Assembly: GCA_020809425.1 (NCBI GenBank)
Contig: JAGGDC010000001.1
Coordinates: 2,121,001-2,185,000 of the forward strand
Origin: Candidatus Synoicihabitans palmerolidicus
Lineage (GTDB): Bacteria; Verrucomicrobiota; Verrucomicrobiia; Opitutales; Opitutaceae
Length of the DNA: 64,000 bases
Direction: 5' to 3'
A program made the translations under genes and the position numbers. This document shows positions 5,980 through 64,000 of the stretch, in pieces. Position 1 is the first letter of the stretch. Every line of letters starts with the position of its first letter. Below the pieces are notes generated by a model. It did no database searches. It worked only from the letters and a program-made list of their open reading frames with translations, and was not told the origin of the DNA.

Positions 5980-7287
5980 TGAGGTGGACCCATGAAGTTG
6001 GACAGGAGGGATGATTAAATCCCAAAGGAGTCCAATATGTCGAAGAAACGACGTGCATTCAGTGCCGAATTCAAAGCGAAAGTAGGGCTCGAAGCCCTCA
6101 AGGGAATCGAGCTGATCCACGTAATCGCGCAGCGTCACGAGGTGCATCCGGTGCAAGTGAGTCAGTAGAAGAAGGAGGTGTCCGAGCGGTTGCCGGAGGT
6201 CTTCGCGAAGCCCTCGGCGCAGGTGCGCGACGAGATCGAGCGGAAGCGCAAAGAGAAGGAACTGTATGCGCGGATCGGGCAGCTGCAGATGGAGCTCGAG
6301 TGGCTCAAAAAAAGTTGGCGCATGTGGGGAGTAAGGAGCGCCGCAGCATGATCGAAACCGAGCATCCGAAGCTGAGTGTGGCCCGGCAGTACGAACTGTT
6401 GGAGCTGCCACGCTCAACCTACTACCACCACCCGAAGCCACCGCAGGAAGCGGACCTGGCGTTGATGAAACAGATCGACGAGATCTACCTCGAGTCACCG
6501 TTCTTTGGTAGCCGCCAAATGACCCGTTGGTTGCAACGCGAAGGACACGTGGTGAACCGTAAACGGGTGCGACGATTGATGCGATTAATGGGACTCACGG
6601 CGATCTATCAAAACCCGAGTCTGTCGAAGAAAGCGGCCTCTCATCAGATCTACCCGTATCTGCTGCGAACGCTGAAGGTTGAAAGGTCGAATCAAGGGTG
6701 GGCAACAGATATCATCTACATCCCGGTGTGCGGTGATCGACTGGCACTCGCGGATGGTGCTCGCATGGGAACTGTCCAACACGCTCGATGCGTCGTTTTG
6801 CGTGCGAGCGGTGCAGCGCGCGATGGCGATTTACGGCAAGCCTGAGATCTTCAACACCGACCAAGGCTGCCAGTTTGCCAGCGCCGAGTGCACCCAGCCA
6901 TTGTTGGCCGCCGGCGTGTGACTGTCGATGGACGGCAAAGGACGGTGCTTGGACAATGTTTTGGTCGAACGCCTGTGGCGCAGCGTCAAATACGAGGAAG
7001 TCTATCTGAAACGCTATGAGACGATGGTCGAGGCCCATGCCAACTTGGAGACCTACTTGCTGTTCTACAACGACCGACGACCGCACTCCGCCCACGGCCG
7101 CCAAACACCATCCGAGGTCTACCACGCACAACTCGACCAAGCCGCCGCCTGACGGCGGCTATCCGAGCGGGGAGGAAGCCGCGCTTCCTCCCCTGCTCCC
7201 CTCCATTATCTTTTATGCTTGGTCAGAAAAACCAGAAACCATAACTATAAATCCGCCCGACCTGTCCAACCGACGGGGTCCACCTCA
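5980..7287 (+). mobile_element. IS3-family element, copy 1
   Basis: 1308 bp with terminal inverted repeats TGAGGTGGACCC at both ends, the TG...CA ends usual for IS3. ATAT occurs at 5976-5979 and 7288-7291, a 4-bp target duplication. The element sits between a short open frame starting ATG 5905 (MKASQRPSQASISARIAALK) and the hypothetical gene at 7329. These may be two parts of one interrupted gene, although the frames do not join exactly. Confidence 0.9.
6037..7152 (+). pseudogene. IS3 transposase orfA/orfB, copy 1, inactivated
   Basis: orfA starts ATG 6037 (MSKKRRAFSAEFKAKVGLEA, the HTH DNA-binding part) and is ended early by TAG 6166-6168, where copy 2 has Trp. A run of seven A (about 6307-6313) lies where orfA meets the -1 frame of orfB, the usual IS3 programmed frameshift site. 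orfB has the rve integrase core: DIIYIPVCG, FNTDQG, and RLWRSVKYEEVYLK with the catalytic Glu. It is broken by a 23-bp deletion near 6732 relative to copy 2 and by TGA at 6919-6921. It cannot make an active enzyme. Confidence 0.85.
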
Positions 7288-55560: not shown

Positions 55561-55947
55561 CGTTCCTCTCCGGGCAACTCCGGCCGTCCCTCAATCCGGT
55601 TTGCCGCCACCACTCCAGTCCGCCAGCATCCCCCCATTGCGCTCCCCCTTCCTCTCCCGACGCGTAAACTGGCTTGCCCCGACCACCATCATGTTCCTCG
55701 GTTCACCTCCACCTCGCAAGTCCGCGCCAACCCCTCGGCGTGGCTCGGATTTGCGGTGCTCCTCTTCGATCTATTTTCGATCGTCGGACCAACGCCCGTC
55801 CTCGACGGAAACCGCTCCTCAGACCGGCCTTGATTTCCGCCACCCTCGCCGGTCCGCCGCCGCCGCGCATGCGTAGCGCACCTCTGCCTCATTAAAATAA
55901 TCCGCCTCATTTTGTGCGATCCATCTTCCGGCGGGTGCCTGTCTACA
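55561..55947. other. 387-bp stretch without a recognised gene
   Basis: Divergent promoter space between the YfhO-like remnant and the sigma factor gene. Open frames on both strands here are Pro/Arg-rich shadows with no family resemblance. No hairpin or repeat was noticed. Confidence 0.5.
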
Positions 55948-57178
55948 ATGAAGACCGACTCCGAACTGCTGAACCGTTTCGTGACCCACGACGATCAAGC
56001 CGCTTTTGCGGCCCTCGTCGAGCGTCACCTGGGTTGGCTGTTCGCCACCGCTCAACGCCAACTTTGCGGCGACGCCCATCTGGCCCAGGACGCCGTGCAA
56101 CTGGTCTTCAATGATCTTGTCGCCAAAGCCGCCCGTCTCCGCCACTACACCGCCCTCAACGCCTGGTTGTTCACCAGCCTGCGCTACACCACCGCCAAAC
56201 TTGTGCGCACTCAACAACGTCGTCGCCAACGCGAACACTCCGCTGCCATGGACCCTCCCGCCTCCGAACCCAACGTCGATTGGGATGCCGTGCGCCCCGT
56301 AATCGACGAAGCCCTCGCCGCCCTGGCCCCCCCCCATCGCGACGCCATCATCCAACGCTTCTTCGAACAAGCTGACTACGCCGCCATCGCCACCCGCCTC
56401 GATCTCACCGCCAACGCCGCACGCATGCGCGTCGACCGCGCCCTCGATCAACTCAGCGCGCAACTCCAACGCCGCGGCGTCACATCGACCGCCTCCGCCC
56501 TGGGTGTCGTATTGGGCACCCAACCCCTCACCGCCGCCCCCATCGGCCTCGCCGCCACGATTTCCACCACTGCGCTCTCCACCAACGTCTTCACCACCGC
56601 CTCCATCCTCGCCATGACCAAAGCCCCCTTCATCGCCACTGCCGTGGTCGTCGCGACCGGCATCACCCTCATCTCGCGAGAGTCCGGCCAGCAGGAAACT
56701 CTGCGACAGTCGCTCGCCACCCCTCCTCCTCTGTGGGGGCGGCAGTCCCGACGCCGACTACGCCGTCCTCGAACACGAGATCACCACCCTTCAATCCCGC
56801 CTCGTCGAACTCGATCGTGCGGCCGTCGCTCGCCTGCAACGGCCGCCCCTCCAAGGTAAGATCTACGACGTCAAGGAACTTGATGCCGCCCCCAAACCCA
56901 GCAAACAGATTGCCCCGAAGTATCCAAGTGAGATGCGAGACCAAGGCGTCGGCGGGCGGGCCACGATCTCCATGACCATCGATAAAACTGGCGCCGTTCG
57001 CGATCTTCAGACAGTCAGCACTTCGGAAGAAGTATTTGCCGAAGCTGCGCTGGCAGCGGTGTCCCAATGGCAGTTTGAACCCGGCCAACTCGCGGGTCTG
57101 CCCGTCAATACCAGGATGCAGCTTCCCTTCATCTTCAATATCAGCAAAGAACCTTCGCACTTCGATGACTGGTTCTAA
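55948..57178 (+). pseudogene. ECF sigma factor fused through a membrane helix to a TonB C-terminal domain, one frameshift
   Basis: ATG 55948. Residues 1-90 are sigma region 2 (DDQAAFAALVERHLGWLFAT, AQDAVQLVFNDLVAKA, NAWLFTSLRYTTAKLVR). Region 4 is at about 110-170 (LAALAPPHRDAIIQRFF, DYAAIATRLDLTANAARMRV). A Ala/Thr-rich stretch leads to a membrane helix (FIATAVVVATGITLI, about residue 225-245). One base is gained or lost in GTGGGGGCGG (about 56735). In the restored frame a coiled coil (YAVLEHEITTLQSRLVELDR) leads to a TonB_C domain: IAPKYPSEMRDQGVGGRATI, GAVRDLQTVSTSEE and AVSQWQFEPGQLAG, stop 57176-57178. The frame is open right up to the break on both sides, so the fusion is ancestral. It would be a membrane-tethered sigma factor with a periplasmic TonB-like tail. 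Confidence 0.8.
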
Positions 57179-57933
57179 ACTCCGGCTCCTCGCCTGGTGC
57201 CTGCCCTTGCTGGTCGCGGGCGGCATGTGGGCCCGACTCCACGCTTTGCGCTCCGAAACCAAGGATCTCGCCAGTCTGTCGTCGGAACCCGCAACGTCGG
57301 TCCCCCCCCACACGTCCATCCCTCCCCGTGGCGCGCCCTGCCCCGGTAAACGACGAGGTCCAAAACTTTGCCCAACTGCGGCAGGAACTCGCCCAATTTT
57401 GCGCCCGCATCGCCACGCGGGAACATCAACTGCACTTCGCCACGCAACGCCCACACCCCAGCCACGCAGCCTCACCGAGGACTTCCTCGCCGTCGAGGAA
57501 TGGCGCGACGCCGGCACGGCAACTCCCGCCGCCCTGGCCGAGACCGCTCTCTGGGCCGGCGCGGGCGGCGATGTCCAACGCATGGCAAGTCTGCTGACGT
57601 TCGACGAAGAAGGACTCGCCGCCGGCCAACGCCCTGCTCGCACGGCTGCCGCCCATCGATCTCCTCCCCCCCGAAGCCGACGGCCACGCCCTCATCGCGC
57701 TGCTCGCCACCGACGCGGTCCCACTCTCGACCGCCAGACTCGTCGGCGACTACCCACAGAAAACCGACGAATACATCCTGGTCATGCGTCTCACCCCGAC
57801 CAAGGACGCGCCTCCCGGGGCCCCCTCGCGCAACGTAAAAATCACCGCCCGCCAGGACCCCGCTTCCTCCGAGTGGCGCTTGGCCGTACCGCCTGCTGCG
57901 ATCGATCGTTTCGCCTCCCGGTTGGGCCTTTAA
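57165..57933 (+). pseudogene. Membrane-anchored partner protein of the sigma-TonB gene, frameshifted
   Basis: ATG 57165 overlaps the end of the previous gene by 14 bases, so the two were coupled. MTGSKLRLLAWCLPLLVAGG is a signal anchor. The rest is spread over two frames: VNDEVQNFAQLRQELAQF (coiled coil), EDFLAVEEWRDAGTATPAAL and ETALWAGAGGDVQRMASLLT, then ALIALLATDAVPLSTARLVG and EWRLAVPPAAIDRFASRLGL, with TAA 57931-57933. Three frame changes. Proteins of this kind, with a 'TPxAALETALWAxAxGD' core, often follow sigma factors in Verrucomicrobiota as I recall, but their role is unknown. Confidence 0.62.
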
Positions 57934-59565: not shown

Positions 59566-60360
59566 ATGCGAAACTCCTTCCCCAAAGCAGAATCGTCACC
59601 CCGGGGTGGCGATTCCCCGATCGAAGACACGCGTCGGCAGGAAGTGGAATTAGACCACTCCCAAAGCACCCAACGCTATGACCGGCTTATCAGCACCATC
59701 CCCTGCGCCGTCTACGACTATGTCCTCTGCCCGGATGGAGGGAGTCGTTTCTGCTACATCAGTCCCCAGTGCGAGGATATCTTCGAACTGACCGCGACGC
59801 AGATTATGGCCGACGCCAAGACCCTCTGGGGCTTGGTGCATCCAGCAGACGCCACGCGTTTGAGCACCGAAGACGCCAAGGCCATGCAAACTCACCAATC
59901 CTTTCAATCCGAAGTCCGTATCAATCTGCCTTCGGGCCCCACCAAATGGATTCAGTTAACCTCCCGGCCTGGCCCCCATCAGATTGGAAACCAACAAGTG
60001 TGGAGCGGCGTGATTCTGGACATCACCGCCCGGAAACAAGTCGAGGCGGAAAGGAACCGACTTGTCCGCGAACTGCAGTCCGCCCTCGCGGAGGTCAAAA
60101 CCCTGAGCGGATTTTTACCCATCTGCTCGGGCGGAAAAAAAATCCGGGACAACACGGGTTACTGGAATCAAATTGAGGCTTCTATCAGCGATCACTCCGA
60201 CGCTGAGTTCAGCCACGGCATCTGCCCCGACTGTGCCGAAAACTACTACGAGGAATTGCGGAGAATGGAAGCAGCCACCAACCGCCCCTCCCTCACCGCG
60301 CAACCTGCCGGTCCGCACGAAGCTCACGTCGGGTCGGAAGTTGGAGTATCCACCATCTAG
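59566..60360 (+). CDS. PAS-domain protein with C-terminal Cys-rich 'CKKIRD' module
   Basis: 264 residues from ATG 59566; the frame is open 7 codons upstream, but 59566 fits best. An unstructured N-terminal 35 residues lead to a PAS_3-type fold (YDRLISTIPCAVYDYVLCPD, ISPQCEDIFELTATQIMADA, WIQLTSRPGPHQIGNQQVWS, VILDITARKQVEAERNRLVR). A coiled coil is followed by LPICSGGKKIRDNTGYWNQI and FSHGICPDCAENYYEE. In relatives this tail has two Cys pairs (CSxCKKIRD and CPxC) thought to bind metal; here the second Cys of the first pair is Gly. No kinase or cyclase domain. Its stop shares CTAG with the convergent FUSC gene. Confidence 0.77.
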   Translation: MRNSFPKAESSPRGGDSPIEDTRRQEVELDHSQSTQRYDRLISTIPCAVYDYVLCPDGGSRFCYISPQCEDIFELTATQIMADAKTLWGLVHPADATRLSTEDAKAMQTHQSFQSEVRINLPSGPTKWIQLTSRPGPHQIGNQQVWSGVILDITARKQVEAERNRLVRELQSALAEVKTLSGFLPICSGGKKIRDNTGYWNQIEASISDHSDAEFSHGICPDCAENYYEELRRMEAATNRPSLTAQPAGPHEAHVGSEVGVSTI

Positions 60361-62494
60361 TACGCTCCGGCGGCCAGCATGGCCCGAACTTCGGTCGCCG
60401 TGCGAGCCAGTTGGGTGAGCGCCGACGACTCATCCGTCGGCACACCGTCCGCCGTCGGCAGCGTATCAAACTCGTTCATCACCTCGCTCCGTGCGGTCGA
60501 GACCTCCGCGCCCGACATAACAGCCGACCGCGCCAATAAATCGAGGCCACGGAGAATTGTCGCGAAATAACGCTCGTACACCGGCGAAGTGACTCTCGGC
60601 CCATCCCGCAATCCCACCATCAGAAGATTCGCCAACCGCAAAACGCGCTGGTTGCCGTTGGCCAACGTCGCCGCCCGCTCGATCTCCGCTCGCGGATTGT
60701 GCGCGTCTGCAAACAGCCGTCCGACCGACGAGAATACCGCCACACTGGCCGACTCCGCCCGCCGCTTGGTTTGCACCGTCACATCATCCAAACCTCCTCC
60801 GACCTGTAAACAATGCTGCAGTTGAACCCAGTATTCATCGGTCGACCGTAGGGCTCCAGCCAATACGGGAACAAACCGGTCATGCTCCCACATCGGCCAG
60901 AAGAGCCACGCTGCCACCAACGCAATCACTCCGCCCGCCAGCGTCGCCCCGATTCGTTCCAACTCGATGTGCGCCCCGCCCTGGCCGGTGTGTTCAAGCA
61001 ACAGCACCACGAAGATTGTCGCGCCAAACACCGCCGCCGCGTAGTTCCGCTTCAGATGGTAGGCAAAGGCAAATACGCAGCCCCCCATAATCGCCAAATG
61101 CCAAGTCGATCCAGGATGGATCCACAACAACGCCGACGCCACCAAACTGCCGGCCAACGTGCCCGCCAACCGTTGCCCGGCACGTCGCCGGGTCGATCCG
61201 TAGTCCGGCTGCATCACCACCACCACCGTAAAGGGCAGCCAATACCCGTGCGGAATGCCCCACCCCCGATAAATGAACGTCGCCAACTCGGTGCACACCG
61301 AGAGCCTCAGCCCAAACCGCACCAGCGATGGATCGATATTCCGACTGAAATTCAACGCCGTCGCCAACGGCTTCAGTTGCCACGTCTGCACATCCAGCAA
61401 TTCCACCGCAAACAACGCCCGCTCTTCCCCCCCGGTCCAAGGTCACCCGCAAGGTTTCGAGCATATCGGGCACCGTCTCCTCCACCCGCACAAATAACTT
61501 GGCCAGCATCGCCGCCCCCACTCGTTCCGATCGGCTTCGAGCCGCGCCCGCACCGTCTCCAGCAGTGCCCCCAGGCGCCTCAGTCGCACATCACAACTCG
61601 CCAAATGCGCCGGTTGGCGCGACCCCACCACCACCGCGATGCTCCGCGCACTGTTGGTCAAATTGGTCAACACCTGCCCCAACGCCGGTTCCACTCGCGC
61701 ATGGACCGGGGTCCCGCGCATCCCCTCCAACGCAGTGTGCACTGCGACCACCCGCACCCCGAGCCGTGCCGCCCGTAAACTCAACGCTTCCAACCGATCC
61801 GCCAACCCGTTCTTACGGTGCCTCGAGGCTCCCCCGAGCAGTCGCGTGGTCTGGTCCAGCGTAACTCGCAATTCACTCTCGGCCGTCGCCATCGCCGCCG
61901 ACGCCCGTCCGGCCTGCAATGCGTCAAACAACGTACTCACCGCAATCCAACTGTCACTCGCCGCCCGGCGCAACGGGTGCTGCGCCCGCAAGGGGCACAA
62001 GGCCGTTTGCAGGACCAAACCGATGCCTCCCCCCACCAGTATCGCCGCCACATGTTCACGCAAATCCTCGGGGCCCGATGCGGTCGCCATGCTGATTAAG
62101 AACAACAACATCGACGACGCCGACAGCAGCGGGCCGTAGTCACTGCCCAAGTGCCGCCACACCGCCGCCCCCATCGCCACCAACATCGTCGCCACCACCG
62201 CACCCGCGATATGGCGGCCGCCAGTGCTCCCAGCGCCCCCGCCGATGCCAACAACCGCGTCATGCCCACCAACAACAAAACACGCAGACGGTAGTCACCT
62301 CGCACATCCAGCATGGCAATATTCTGGGCCGCAATGGACGCGAAGACCACCGACACCGGCAACCCAACCGTCGCCTGCAGCGCCAACGGAACCATGAACC
62401 CCGCCGTCGCTCGACCCGCCCGCGCCCAATCCGTCCTCCGTGACGGATTCCACAACTGCTCCCAAAAACGATTACCTGAGGCGGCCCCACTCAT
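60357..62494 (-). pseudogene. FUSC-family inner-membrane efflux protein (YccS/AaeB-like), several frameshifts
   Basis: ATG 62494: MSGAASGNRFWEQLWNPSRR, then the first membrane block (GFMVPLALQATVGLPVSVVF). A second helical block (LLSASSMLLFLISMATASGP) and a cytoplasmic helical region (DQTTRLLGGASRHRKN) follow. A second membrane block contains the FUSC core YWLPFTVVVVMQPDYGSTRR and RAGQRLAGTLAGSLVASALL, and the C-terminal domain ends VRAMLAAGAY at 60357. Frame changes near 62200, 61510 and 61430 break it. Corrected length is about 710 residues, as in YccS-like proteins that export aromatic acids or polyamines. The second half (60357-61415) is open for 352 residues. Confidence 0.82.
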
Positions 62495-62649: not shown

Positions 62650-64000
62650 CTAAATCTCCTCGGCTTCACGGTGCCTGAAATTGCCGTCCAAATCGGGACG
62701 TTGTTGATGGAAGACATTGGAAACGTGATGGGCAAAACCCGTCCCCGCTTCGGTGTAAAGGTTGAACGCCGTATCGATCCCACGTTCACGTAGCTCCCGC
62801 ACTTCGTCGTCAAACTTGGCCGTCGCCACCACCACCCCTTCATAGTCGAGACGGCGCAGCGTTTAGGCCGCATGCAGATTTACGCTGTGCTTCGGCATGG
62901 CCAGCACCACGAGTTCAAAGGGATGCGCCCGCGTTTTGACCTGATTCCAAAAATCCGCATCCGTAGCATCGGCCAACACCACGTTGCGCGTCTGCTCGCG
63001 ATGCCGCTCCACCGCATTGGGATCGCGATCGAACGCGATGCCCCGACCCGGGTAGCGGCCATCGGGGAATTTGTAAGTCGACAGCCCGACCCGCCCCATC
63101 CCGAAAATCGCAATCTGCTCCCCGTGGTCCGGCACCACAATATCGTCCGGATGGCGACCGGACGTCTCCAGTGGATGCAACCAGCGCGCCAACTTCTCGT
63201 AGAGCGCCTCAGCCCCACGGTTGAGCGGAGCGGCCGCCAGAATGCTCAAAGACAATGCGATCGCGACAATGGTGAGCCACTCCACTCCCCACCCACGCCT
63301 TCTTCACTCCCACCGCCATCACGATCAGTCCGAACTCGCTGTAAGTGGCCAAGGTCCACATCGACATCCACGAAGTACGCACCCGGAGGTGAAACCGCGT
63401 GAGTAATCCCAACAGCAGCACGCTCTTGATCGGCACCAGCAACGTGAGTCCCACCGCAATCCCCAGACCCGTCCAATCAGGCAATCCCTTCAAACCGATG
63501 CTCAAAAAGAAGCCGATTAACAGAATCTCGATGATCGAACCCAGCGACTTGCTCAGCTCCTTCGATTTCGGGTGCTGGCCCACCAAGATACCTACAAACA
63601 GTGCGCCGAGATCCGCCTTGAGCCCGACCGATTCAAACCCCTTCGCGCCGGCTACCAGCGCGAGAAACAACCCGCACAGCGTAATCAGTTCACCGTGACC
63701 GGACCGGGTGACGATCCACGCCATCGCTGGTCGCAACAGTAAAAGCGCAGCCAGCACCCAATCGCCCAGAGAGACGGGATCTTTCCGGTTGAAACCGTGA
63801 GAAACAACACGGCCAGAATATCCTGCATGATCAGGATACCAATCGCGATGCGCCCGTGCAGGGAACCCATCTCGCCGTTCTCCTCCAAGGACTTCACCGC
63901 AAACACCGTGTTCGAAAAGCTGAGCGCAAACGCAATCAACGCCGCTGTTTGAAAAAACAGATCTGTAAATCGCGGAATACCCACGGCCGCCAGACCAATG
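62650..64000 (-). pseudogene. CPA2 cation:proton antiporter with TrkA-N domain, frameshifted and cut by the window edge
   Basis: The gene enters from beyond base 64000. The antiporter domain pieces are FFQTAALIAFALSFSNTVFA, GRIAIGILIMQDILAVLFL (the Asp-containing core helix of KefB/YbaL-type proteins), GFFLSIGLKGLPDWTGLGI and the last helices (EWLTIVAIALSLSILAAAPL). Then comes an RCK/TrkA-N domain (IAIFGMGRVGLSTY, FDRDPNAVERHR, NVVLADATDADFW, LVVLAMPKHSVN), and a last piece VVVATAKFDDEVRELRERGI. Frame changes near 63770, 63300 and 62870 break it. It would exchange K+ or Na+ for H+ across the inner membrane under NAD(H) control. Confidence 0.82.

Follow-up and report, generated by a model that had tools for sequence, protein, structure and literature searches.

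The window, by which we mean the whole 64,000-nucleotide stretch of Candidatus Synoicihabitans palmerolidicus DNA that was analysed (contig JAGGDC010000001.1, positions 2,121,001 to 2,185,000), contains a gene that starts as an ECF sigma factor and ends, after a frame break, in a TonB_C domain. A promoter-like element stands in front of it and a gene for a predicted second anchored protein follows (Table 1). ECF (group 4) sigma factors have regions 2 and 4 as their promoter-binding parts and lack region 3. The window's sigma frame belongs to this group: both regions score above the Pfam cut-offs and the frame has no Pfam match to region 3. It also lies above the cut-off of TIGR02937, and it matches TIGR02989 (Rhodopirellula/Verrucomicrobium) with all matches below that model's cut-off. 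The two frames were searched separately with the gene left unmended, and the domains that a sequence-only reading of this DNA had named, Sigma70_r2, Sigma70_r4_2 and TonB_C, were all found in this way.

Table 1 Features of the sigma factor locus, in coordinates of the window
Feature	Position	Strand	Basis and remarks
Promoter-like element, TTGTGCG-N11-GGCGGGTGC..	55912..55940	+	16/18 family positions; ends 7 nt before the ATG
ECF sigma factor frame (Sigma70 r2, r4, then hydrophobic stretch 1, membrane helix, start of linker)	55948..56727	+	Pfam; ATG at 55948; homology to same-genus relative L032 stops at 56727; open frame extends to 56859, with no stop until then (ORF analysis of the window)
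Sigma70_r2	56014-56223 (residues 23-92)	+	Pfam E 5e-6, above cut-off
Sigma70_r4_2	56302-56454 (residues 119-169)	+	Pfam E 8e-7, above cut-off
Predicted membrane helix	about 56620..56676	+	Sequence by eye; hydropathy of relatives
Stretch containing the frame break	56700..56745	+	tblastn of intact relatives in two frames; protein alignment
Second frame of the same gene (coiled coil, LD..P linker, TonB_C, C-terminal DDWF, stop)	56738..57178	+	ORF, Pfam, tblastn
TonB_C domain	56912..57142	+	Pfam PF03544 E 5e-19; TIGR01352 E 6e-14; phmmer against TonB C-terminal structures, best E 2.4e-8
Partner gene, frame-broken (membrane anchor, coiled coil, NTF2-like domain)	57165..57933	+	tblastn of L033 and L032 partners in two frames

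The earlier reading had joined the two frames across a break near 56735 into one ancestral gene. Using two same-genus relatives in tblastn, we found the sigma frame to be homologous up to about 56727 and the TonB frame, in the other reading frame, up to the codon that precedes the stop at 57176-57178. This switch of frame places the break between about 56,700 and 56,745. Both relatives (L032 in G001 and L033 in G003) are unbroken, with single ORFs of 434 and 436 residues. The overlap of the downstream gene with the TonB stop also holds, its ATG lying at 57165 with an offset identical to that in L033.

The likeliest cause of the break is an assembly or sequencing error, since the assembly (G000; 4.4 Mb in 10 contigs, 69.8% complete, 0.39% contamination) looks rich in indels, the downstream gene (57165-57933) is also frame-broken relative to L032 and L033 in tblastn, and other genes of the window look split as well. 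By eye, a membrane exporter gene (60357-62494) and an antiporter gene (62863-63984) are apparently divided into overlapping frames, which fits many indels in this assembly. Two further broken copies of the sigma gene, L051 (G060) and L054 (G031), are interrupted at other places, which argues against a programmed frameshift; with two unbroken same-genus relatives in addition, we ruled this out.

We searched 141 related genomes with the sigma piece, scoring at most 19 candidates per genome. Matches at E 1e-12 were found in 41 genomes, some of them with many sigma paralogues, and their open frames are mostly 430 to 700 residues long. Genes at the fetched loci were called with a codon-usage caller built for the analysis. 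The fetched regions gave a set of 123 distinct sigma ORFs that includes the window's own frame (L111), while at least six matches lie outside the fetched set (C53, C59 and C86 of G105, C78 of G024, and matches in G074 and G056); here and in the combined set below, ORFs were taken as distinct by their C-terminal 150 residues. A total of 24 of the 123 homologues, from 23 genomes, have sigma r2-r4, a hydrophobic helix, a coiled coil and Pfam TonB_C in a single ORF, and all 23 genomes belong to the window's family, probably Opitutaceae to judge from shared contigs such as that of EW11. The set of 24 includes two incomplete copies, L054 with a break within TonB_C and L110 with an incomplete sigma match. 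Relatives are thus far from always encoding the two parts as separate ORFs with a stop between them, and the domain order proposed earlier is that of the intact relatives. These data confirm the fusion of an ECF sigma factor to a membrane anchor and TonB_C as one ancestral gene.

A scan of genome contigs with the window protein alone returned no relative, whereas an alignment-based scan did. Among titled records, the best 80 matches of the alignment scan correspond to 76 loci: 45 with Opitut- names, 21 with Verrucomicrobi- names, 7 with other names of the phylum, two titled 'bacterium' and one titled Dechloromonas, which is likely a binning slip. In the combined set, 45 of 194 distinct sigmas have TonB_C C-terminal to the sigma part (TonB-type hereafter), namely 23 from the related-genome search, 17 Opitut-, 4 Verrucomicrobi- and the one from Dechloromonas. 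In a sample of 387 genomes of the phylum, with about 4 candidates scored per genome, a 444-column model gave matches that start at column 1 or 2 and extend to at least column 435 in 9 genomes, again all of the window's family.

The C-terminal parts of the 123 sigma ORFs match a total of 22 Pfam families at E 0.001. TonB_C is found in 24, ExbD and NfeD in 2 each, and single cases include a serpin, a pseudopilin (T2SSG), Sel1, TPR, PDZ, SLBB, DUF4878 and a few more. Pfam recognised no anti-sigma domain after region 4 in these 123 parts.

Next, we analysed the gene downstream. A gene was counted as a partner if it lies on the same strand within 120 nt, encodes 80-400 residues and starts with an N-terminal hydrophobic helix. 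Leaving out three TonB-type loci at contig ends, 35 of 42 TonB-type loci have such a partner compared to 52 of 131 other sigma loci (Fisher p 8e-7, with related loci treated as independent). Four loci missed by the rule (L042, L047, L110 and L178) fit by eye, which brings the count to 39 of 42; the remainder are L054, L097 and L153. The locus L097 (7762-10770, in G065) encodes a sigma homologue of about 1000 residues with Sel1-like repeats, TonB_C and a further C-terminal part, and has no partner gene after it. The partner overlaps the sigma gene in 11 of the 35 loci and otherwise begins at most 51 nt from the last sense codon. The idea that this protein senses without needing a separate protein is weakened by such a conserved partner.

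Partner lengths (n=37) fall into 8 proteins of 95-111 residues made of anchor and coil only, one of 196 and the others of 241-308. Pfam alone gives the remaining domain no name. The predicted fold of a long partner (mean pLDDT 86.5) resembles NTF2-like proteins when compared to the PDB with Foldseek (3k7c, E 7e-5, TM-score 0.64 by target length). An NTF2-like HMM matches the downstream gene at 30 of 42 TonB-type loci compared to 17 of 131 other loci, and 11 distinct sigma paralogues have a C-terminal match to it that spans at least 100 residues. As a general rule, proteins that form one chain in some species and are encoded side by side in others likely interact (Rosetta-stone). The NTF2-like domain, fused to sigma paralogues in some cases and adjacent in others, links sigma factor and partner in this sense, and the two proteins would probably pair through their coils.

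The upstream regions of TonB-type genes have an element in common, TTGTGCG-N11-GGCGGGTGCTA, i.e. TTGTGCG-N15-GGTGCTA, which mostly lies 1 to 18 nt upstream of the start codon. The best dyad is present in 28 of 45 upstream regions, compared to a maximum of 5 in five letter shuffles. A score of at least 14 of 18 is reached by 33 of 46 TonB-type genes (window included, and one of the 46 without upstream sequence), by 60 of 149 other sigmas and by 6 of 600 control regions. L158 and L143 match at all 18 of 18 positions; in L154, from Opitutaceae bacterium EW11 (QAYY01000001.1), which is probably an isolate, the expected place has no such element. The window's element matches the family pattern with two mismatches in the genome scan; the window is matched with the 15-nt spacer and shows no match with a spacer 3 longer. 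Classical AAC/CGT ECF promoter spacing was found upstream in at most 1 of 45 regions for any one spacing. We read the element as a candidate autoregulatory promoter.

Across all fetched loci, 100 distinct sites score at least 15, and a sigma gene comes next in 82. Four of the other 18 lie at the start of lipoprotein-like genes (L150:7269, L152:7314, L188:2104 and L138:7303), which have CRH after a lipobox-like stretch and a TonB_C or TonB_C-like domain, detected by HMM in L150, L152 and L188 and by eye in L138. The L132 site lies 322 nt upstream of a called TonB_C gene, and the L172 site precedes a sigma match absent from the gene calls. In L145, an element scoring 16/18 (6158-6194) is immediately followed by a gene that by eye resembles a gamma-glutamyltransferase gene and may belong to the regulon. 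Most of the remaining non-sigma sites look like chance. In addition, G010 has a site with two mismatches before a secreted TonB_C gene.

Among 11 whole genomes, sites with 0-1 mismatch occur in six, each at a TonB-type sigma gene. The site at the sigma gene has two mismatches in G000 and three in G011 and G013, and the genome-wide pattern scan at up to three mismatches finds no near site at the sigma gene of G003 or G040. At this level the pattern is rarer than its backward-read control in 11 of 11 genomes, so that weak sites are uninformative. The small number of sites outside sigma genes suggests a regulon that is very small or not captured. In G029 (L039, L040, L061 and L062), these ECF genes form tandem arrays, with at least 19 matches in one genome; several of the array genes have the same element, which makes cross-activation possible.

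Accounting for these features, we propose the following mechanism. The ECF sigma factor would be tethered to the inner membrane by its C-terminal helix, with the coiled coil and TonB_C, ending in Trp-Phe in over half of the relatives, on the outer side. The next gene would supply a second anchored coiled-coil protein, usually NTF2-like, whose coil would pair with that of the sigma protein. The tether would block sigma activity as long as no signal comes from the envelope. Once such a signal acts on the TonB_C/NTF2-like assembly, cleavage at site 1 and subsequently at site 2 (periplasmic trimming followed by intramembrane cleavage) would free the sigma domain. The freed domain would use the TTGTGCG-N15-GGTGCTA element to activate the operon that encodes it and, in certain species, the genes of TonB_C lipoproteins as well. 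The starting points at the sequence level are the fusion, the partner gene, the shared element and the modular C-termini; from these we infer the topology, the pairing, the proteolytic release, the autoregulation and the signal. A tethered sigma factor with a TonB_C outer domain, released by regulated proteolysis and autoregulated with its partner, is the reading that we favour with moderate confidence. M50 and S41 proteases are present in four of four genomes, and in 14 of 14 and 10 of 14 control genomes, respectively.

The Trp-Phe terminus is found in 26 of 45 TonB-type proteins compared to 3 of 149 other sigmas, in none of 28 free TonB_C ORFs and in 35 of 2061 predicted genes (the same gene being repeated in places). 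As a lead only, such a free hydrophobic C-terminus might be recognised by PDZ proteases (e.g. Prc); the sections of PMC5411451 used here discuss Prc and C-termini, and IutY minus its last residues is still cut.

One tentative alternative, which goes back to the sequence-only reading, is that TonB_C binds periplasmic TonB boxes and thereby reports receptor occupancy to the tethered sigma factor. Its fold is that of receptor-bound TonB: in a predicted model of the intact relative L133, Foldseek pairs the C-terminus with the TonB C-terminal domains 6i97 (rmsd 1.5 over 87 columns), 2gsk and 1u07, and 6i97 and 2gsk are chains from complexes with FoxA and BtuB. Receptors would be plentiful, with 63 to 150 Plug matches in each of four genomes, and in G003 a receptor with an STN-like N-terminus (L033:9313-11853, by eye) is divergent from the ECF-TonB_C gene. 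Synteny with TonB-dependent receptors, which the sequence-only reading had suggested looking for, nonetheless fails as a rule. A receptor is next door in 1 of 42 TonB-type loci, the L033 case alone (the window's neighbours being viewed as ORFs only), and within five genes there is no enrichment, with 2 of 42 TonB-type compared to 6 of 131 other sigma loci; one of six loci with short sigma ORFs has a receptor near. The search was a blastp from 30 receptor ORFs that found 10 receptor genes among the 2061 predicted genes and may miss weak receptors. A free TonB_C gene lies within three genes in 10 of 42 TonB-type loci (one being the broken copy L054) compared to 4 of 131 others (three being one gene counted from several sigmas).

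Segments resembling the N-terminal TonB-box region of the receptors in these genomes, which would also favour receptor reading, occur in the C-terminal part of 6 of 45 TonB-type proteins, in 7 of 30 receptor ORFs and in 46 of 1393 control gene C-termini; against it, they are restricted to few family members and absent from the window protein. They are found (e.g. VKLSEFSVTG) in L036, L038, L039, L132 and L148, plus L137 at the C-terminus. In the aligned cases the segment is an insert inside the TonB_C domain, where self-inhibition is possible.

Our favoured reading of a protease-released sigma factor places TonB_C outside the inner membrane, as the earlier note had done. The AlphaFold model of L133 (25 rows) has a mean pLDDT of 75.1, with confident sigma domains and TonB_C. 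Foldseek assigns its sigma part to the ECF sigma factors 9m9e, 5wur and 1or7, and a long helix (271-324) joins the sigma part and TonB_C. Residues 195-259 have a pLDDT below 50, leaving the membrane part of L133 without a usable model. Besides the anchor there is a further hydrophobic stretch at residues about 185-215, with mean hydropathy in alignment A4 of up to 1.54 compared to 1.44 for the anchor, and both flanks of the anchor carry charges. Accordingly, one or two membrane passes are both possible, and a C-terminus in the cytoplasm would result if both stretches cross. In that case the two would form a hairpin, and the coil and TonB_C would be cytoplasmic, dimerising or self-inhibiting.

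We regard such a hairpin as improbable. The insertion score, on a rough scale, favours the second stretch, i.e. the anchor, in 38 of 45 proteins. In the partner, the same NTF2-like domain stands behind a one-pass N-terminal anchor, and the net positive N-tail before this anchor in 33 of 35 partners points to an outside C-terminus. Several families swapped in as C-terminal extensions argue in the same direction, serpin, PDZ, pseudopilin and ExbD being usually extracytoplasmic. A periplasmic C-terminus is therefore likely from the partner's anchor and the swapped-in families, whereas hydropathy alone fits either topology.

The variety of extensions raises the question of whether the C-terminal parts are slack, i.e. 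variable domains behind a tether on a sigma factor that is always active at the membrane. On a sigma-part tree (FastTree, 188 rows), the TonB label changes 16 to 18 times, at least four of them forced by supported branches, compared to a shuffled mean of 39.6. This suggests that the outer domain was gained, lost or swapped several times, as slack parts might be. Nonetheless TonB_C stays a folded domain with a frequent tail and the partner is conserved across these changes, which makes slack C-termini a doubtful explanation. The window sits in a supported set of three TonB-type rows, with L032 and L033 nearest. A single origin of the sigma-borne TonB_C was also considered: the domain tree, built from few columns, needs 10 changes, one of them forced, and gives no decision. 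Finally, that the sigma factor and the TonB protein are two genes and the fusion only apparent, as the differing frames of the window might suggest, is virtually impossible given a TonB frame that begins behind the anchor and the intact relatives with single ORFs in 23 genomes (L054 and L110 with the defects given above), which refute it.

The tethered sigma factor that we favour shares parts with several known systems. TonB energy transducers have an N-terminal anchor with an SxxxH motif for ExbB/ExbD. The TonB-type proteins resemble them in the TonB_C domain, TonB C-terminal structures matching that of the window, and differ in the N-terminal sigma factor and in the coiled coil that stands between anchor and TonB_C in the modelled relative L133. 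The motif is found in 0 of 45 TonB-type helices (His in 4 of 45), and we ruled out an energy-transducing TonB on this basis. As in FecI/FecR/FecA, an envelope signal would reach an ECF sigma factor, and G003 has the adjacent STN-like receptor; unlike in that system, outer domain and sigma are in one protein, no FecR domain was found and receptors are not enriched nearby. The SnoaL_2 domain of ECF41/ECF56 is NTF2-like and C-terminal. Some paralogues here likewise have an NTF2-like domain linked to the ECF sigma factor, whereas this domain stands behind a membrane anchor and, in TonB-type loci, on a separate partner protein.

Tethered sigma factors as such are already known from IutY of Pseudomonas putida (ECF243), which according to the sections of PMC5411451 and PMC8999054 used here is a single polypeptide, with an ECF sigma domain in the cytosol joined through one membrane segment to a domain in the periplasm, and is freed by Prc and RseP. 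In the intact relatives, sigma and outer domain are also on one polypeptide, with one or two stretches that may cross the membrane. The periplasmic domain of IutY is of the CSS anti-sigma kind, FecR-type, and a receptor gene lies adjacent. The TonB-type family instead has the coiled coil and TonB_C, is accompanied by a conserved TM-coil-NTF2 partner and generally lacks a receptor gene nearby. No FecR family is among the 22 Pfam families of the 123 C-terminal parts, which have TonB_C instead. The actinobacterial ECF48, ECF52 and ECF53 have a C-terminal extension with membrane helices, and activation by proteolysis is expected for them in the same sections of PMC8999054; they carry a zinc-finger anti-sigma domain, compared to none by Pfam in our 123 C-terminal parts. 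By analogy with IutY, release of a tethered sigma factor through regulated proteolysis is the likeliest mechanism, and TonB_C would be its new outer domain. The word TonB is absent from the main text of PMC8999054. An open-access full-text search gave no paper on an ECF-TonB_C fusion by title or abstract start; the 2021 ECF classification and the 2020 planctomycete survey lie outside that search and may list such a group.

The Opitutaceae architecture together with the partner gene suggests an unstudied route from an envelope signal straight to a promoter. The control of ECF sigma factors that have no apparent anti-sigma factor is named as an open question in a review (PMC8103513, as far as used here), and IutY is, in the 2022 review (PMC8999054, as far as used here), the only fused ECF sigma factor with experimentally characterised proteolytic activation. 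In this family one chassis comes with dozens of naturally swapped domains, with a conserved partner and with a candidate cognate promoter, which makes the question of control directly testable. The proposed mechanism would also give TonB_C a signalling role, and swappable outer domains are of interest for sensor design.

A more speculative extension, to which we give rather little weight, is a pathway of Opitutaceae that leads in one step from the envelope to the promoter and joins three parts under one promoter element: the TonB_C-headed tethered sigma factor, the coiled-coil/NTF2-like partner and sometimes a TonB_C lipoprotein. In such an arrangement TonB_C, drawn from energy transduction, would gate proteolytic release and would read TonB-box-like peptides, which could come from receptors, from the lipoprotein or from the insert within TonB_C itself, and the chassis, by swapping its outer domains (TonB_C, NTF2-like, ExbD, serpin, PDZ, pseudopilin), would yield modular sigma-factor receptors. 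Among the single cases, the sigma ORF ending at L067:10312 (L067 / L028 in G008, locus assigned by sequence) has a serpin domain as its C-terminal extension, with a Pfam E of 1e-94.
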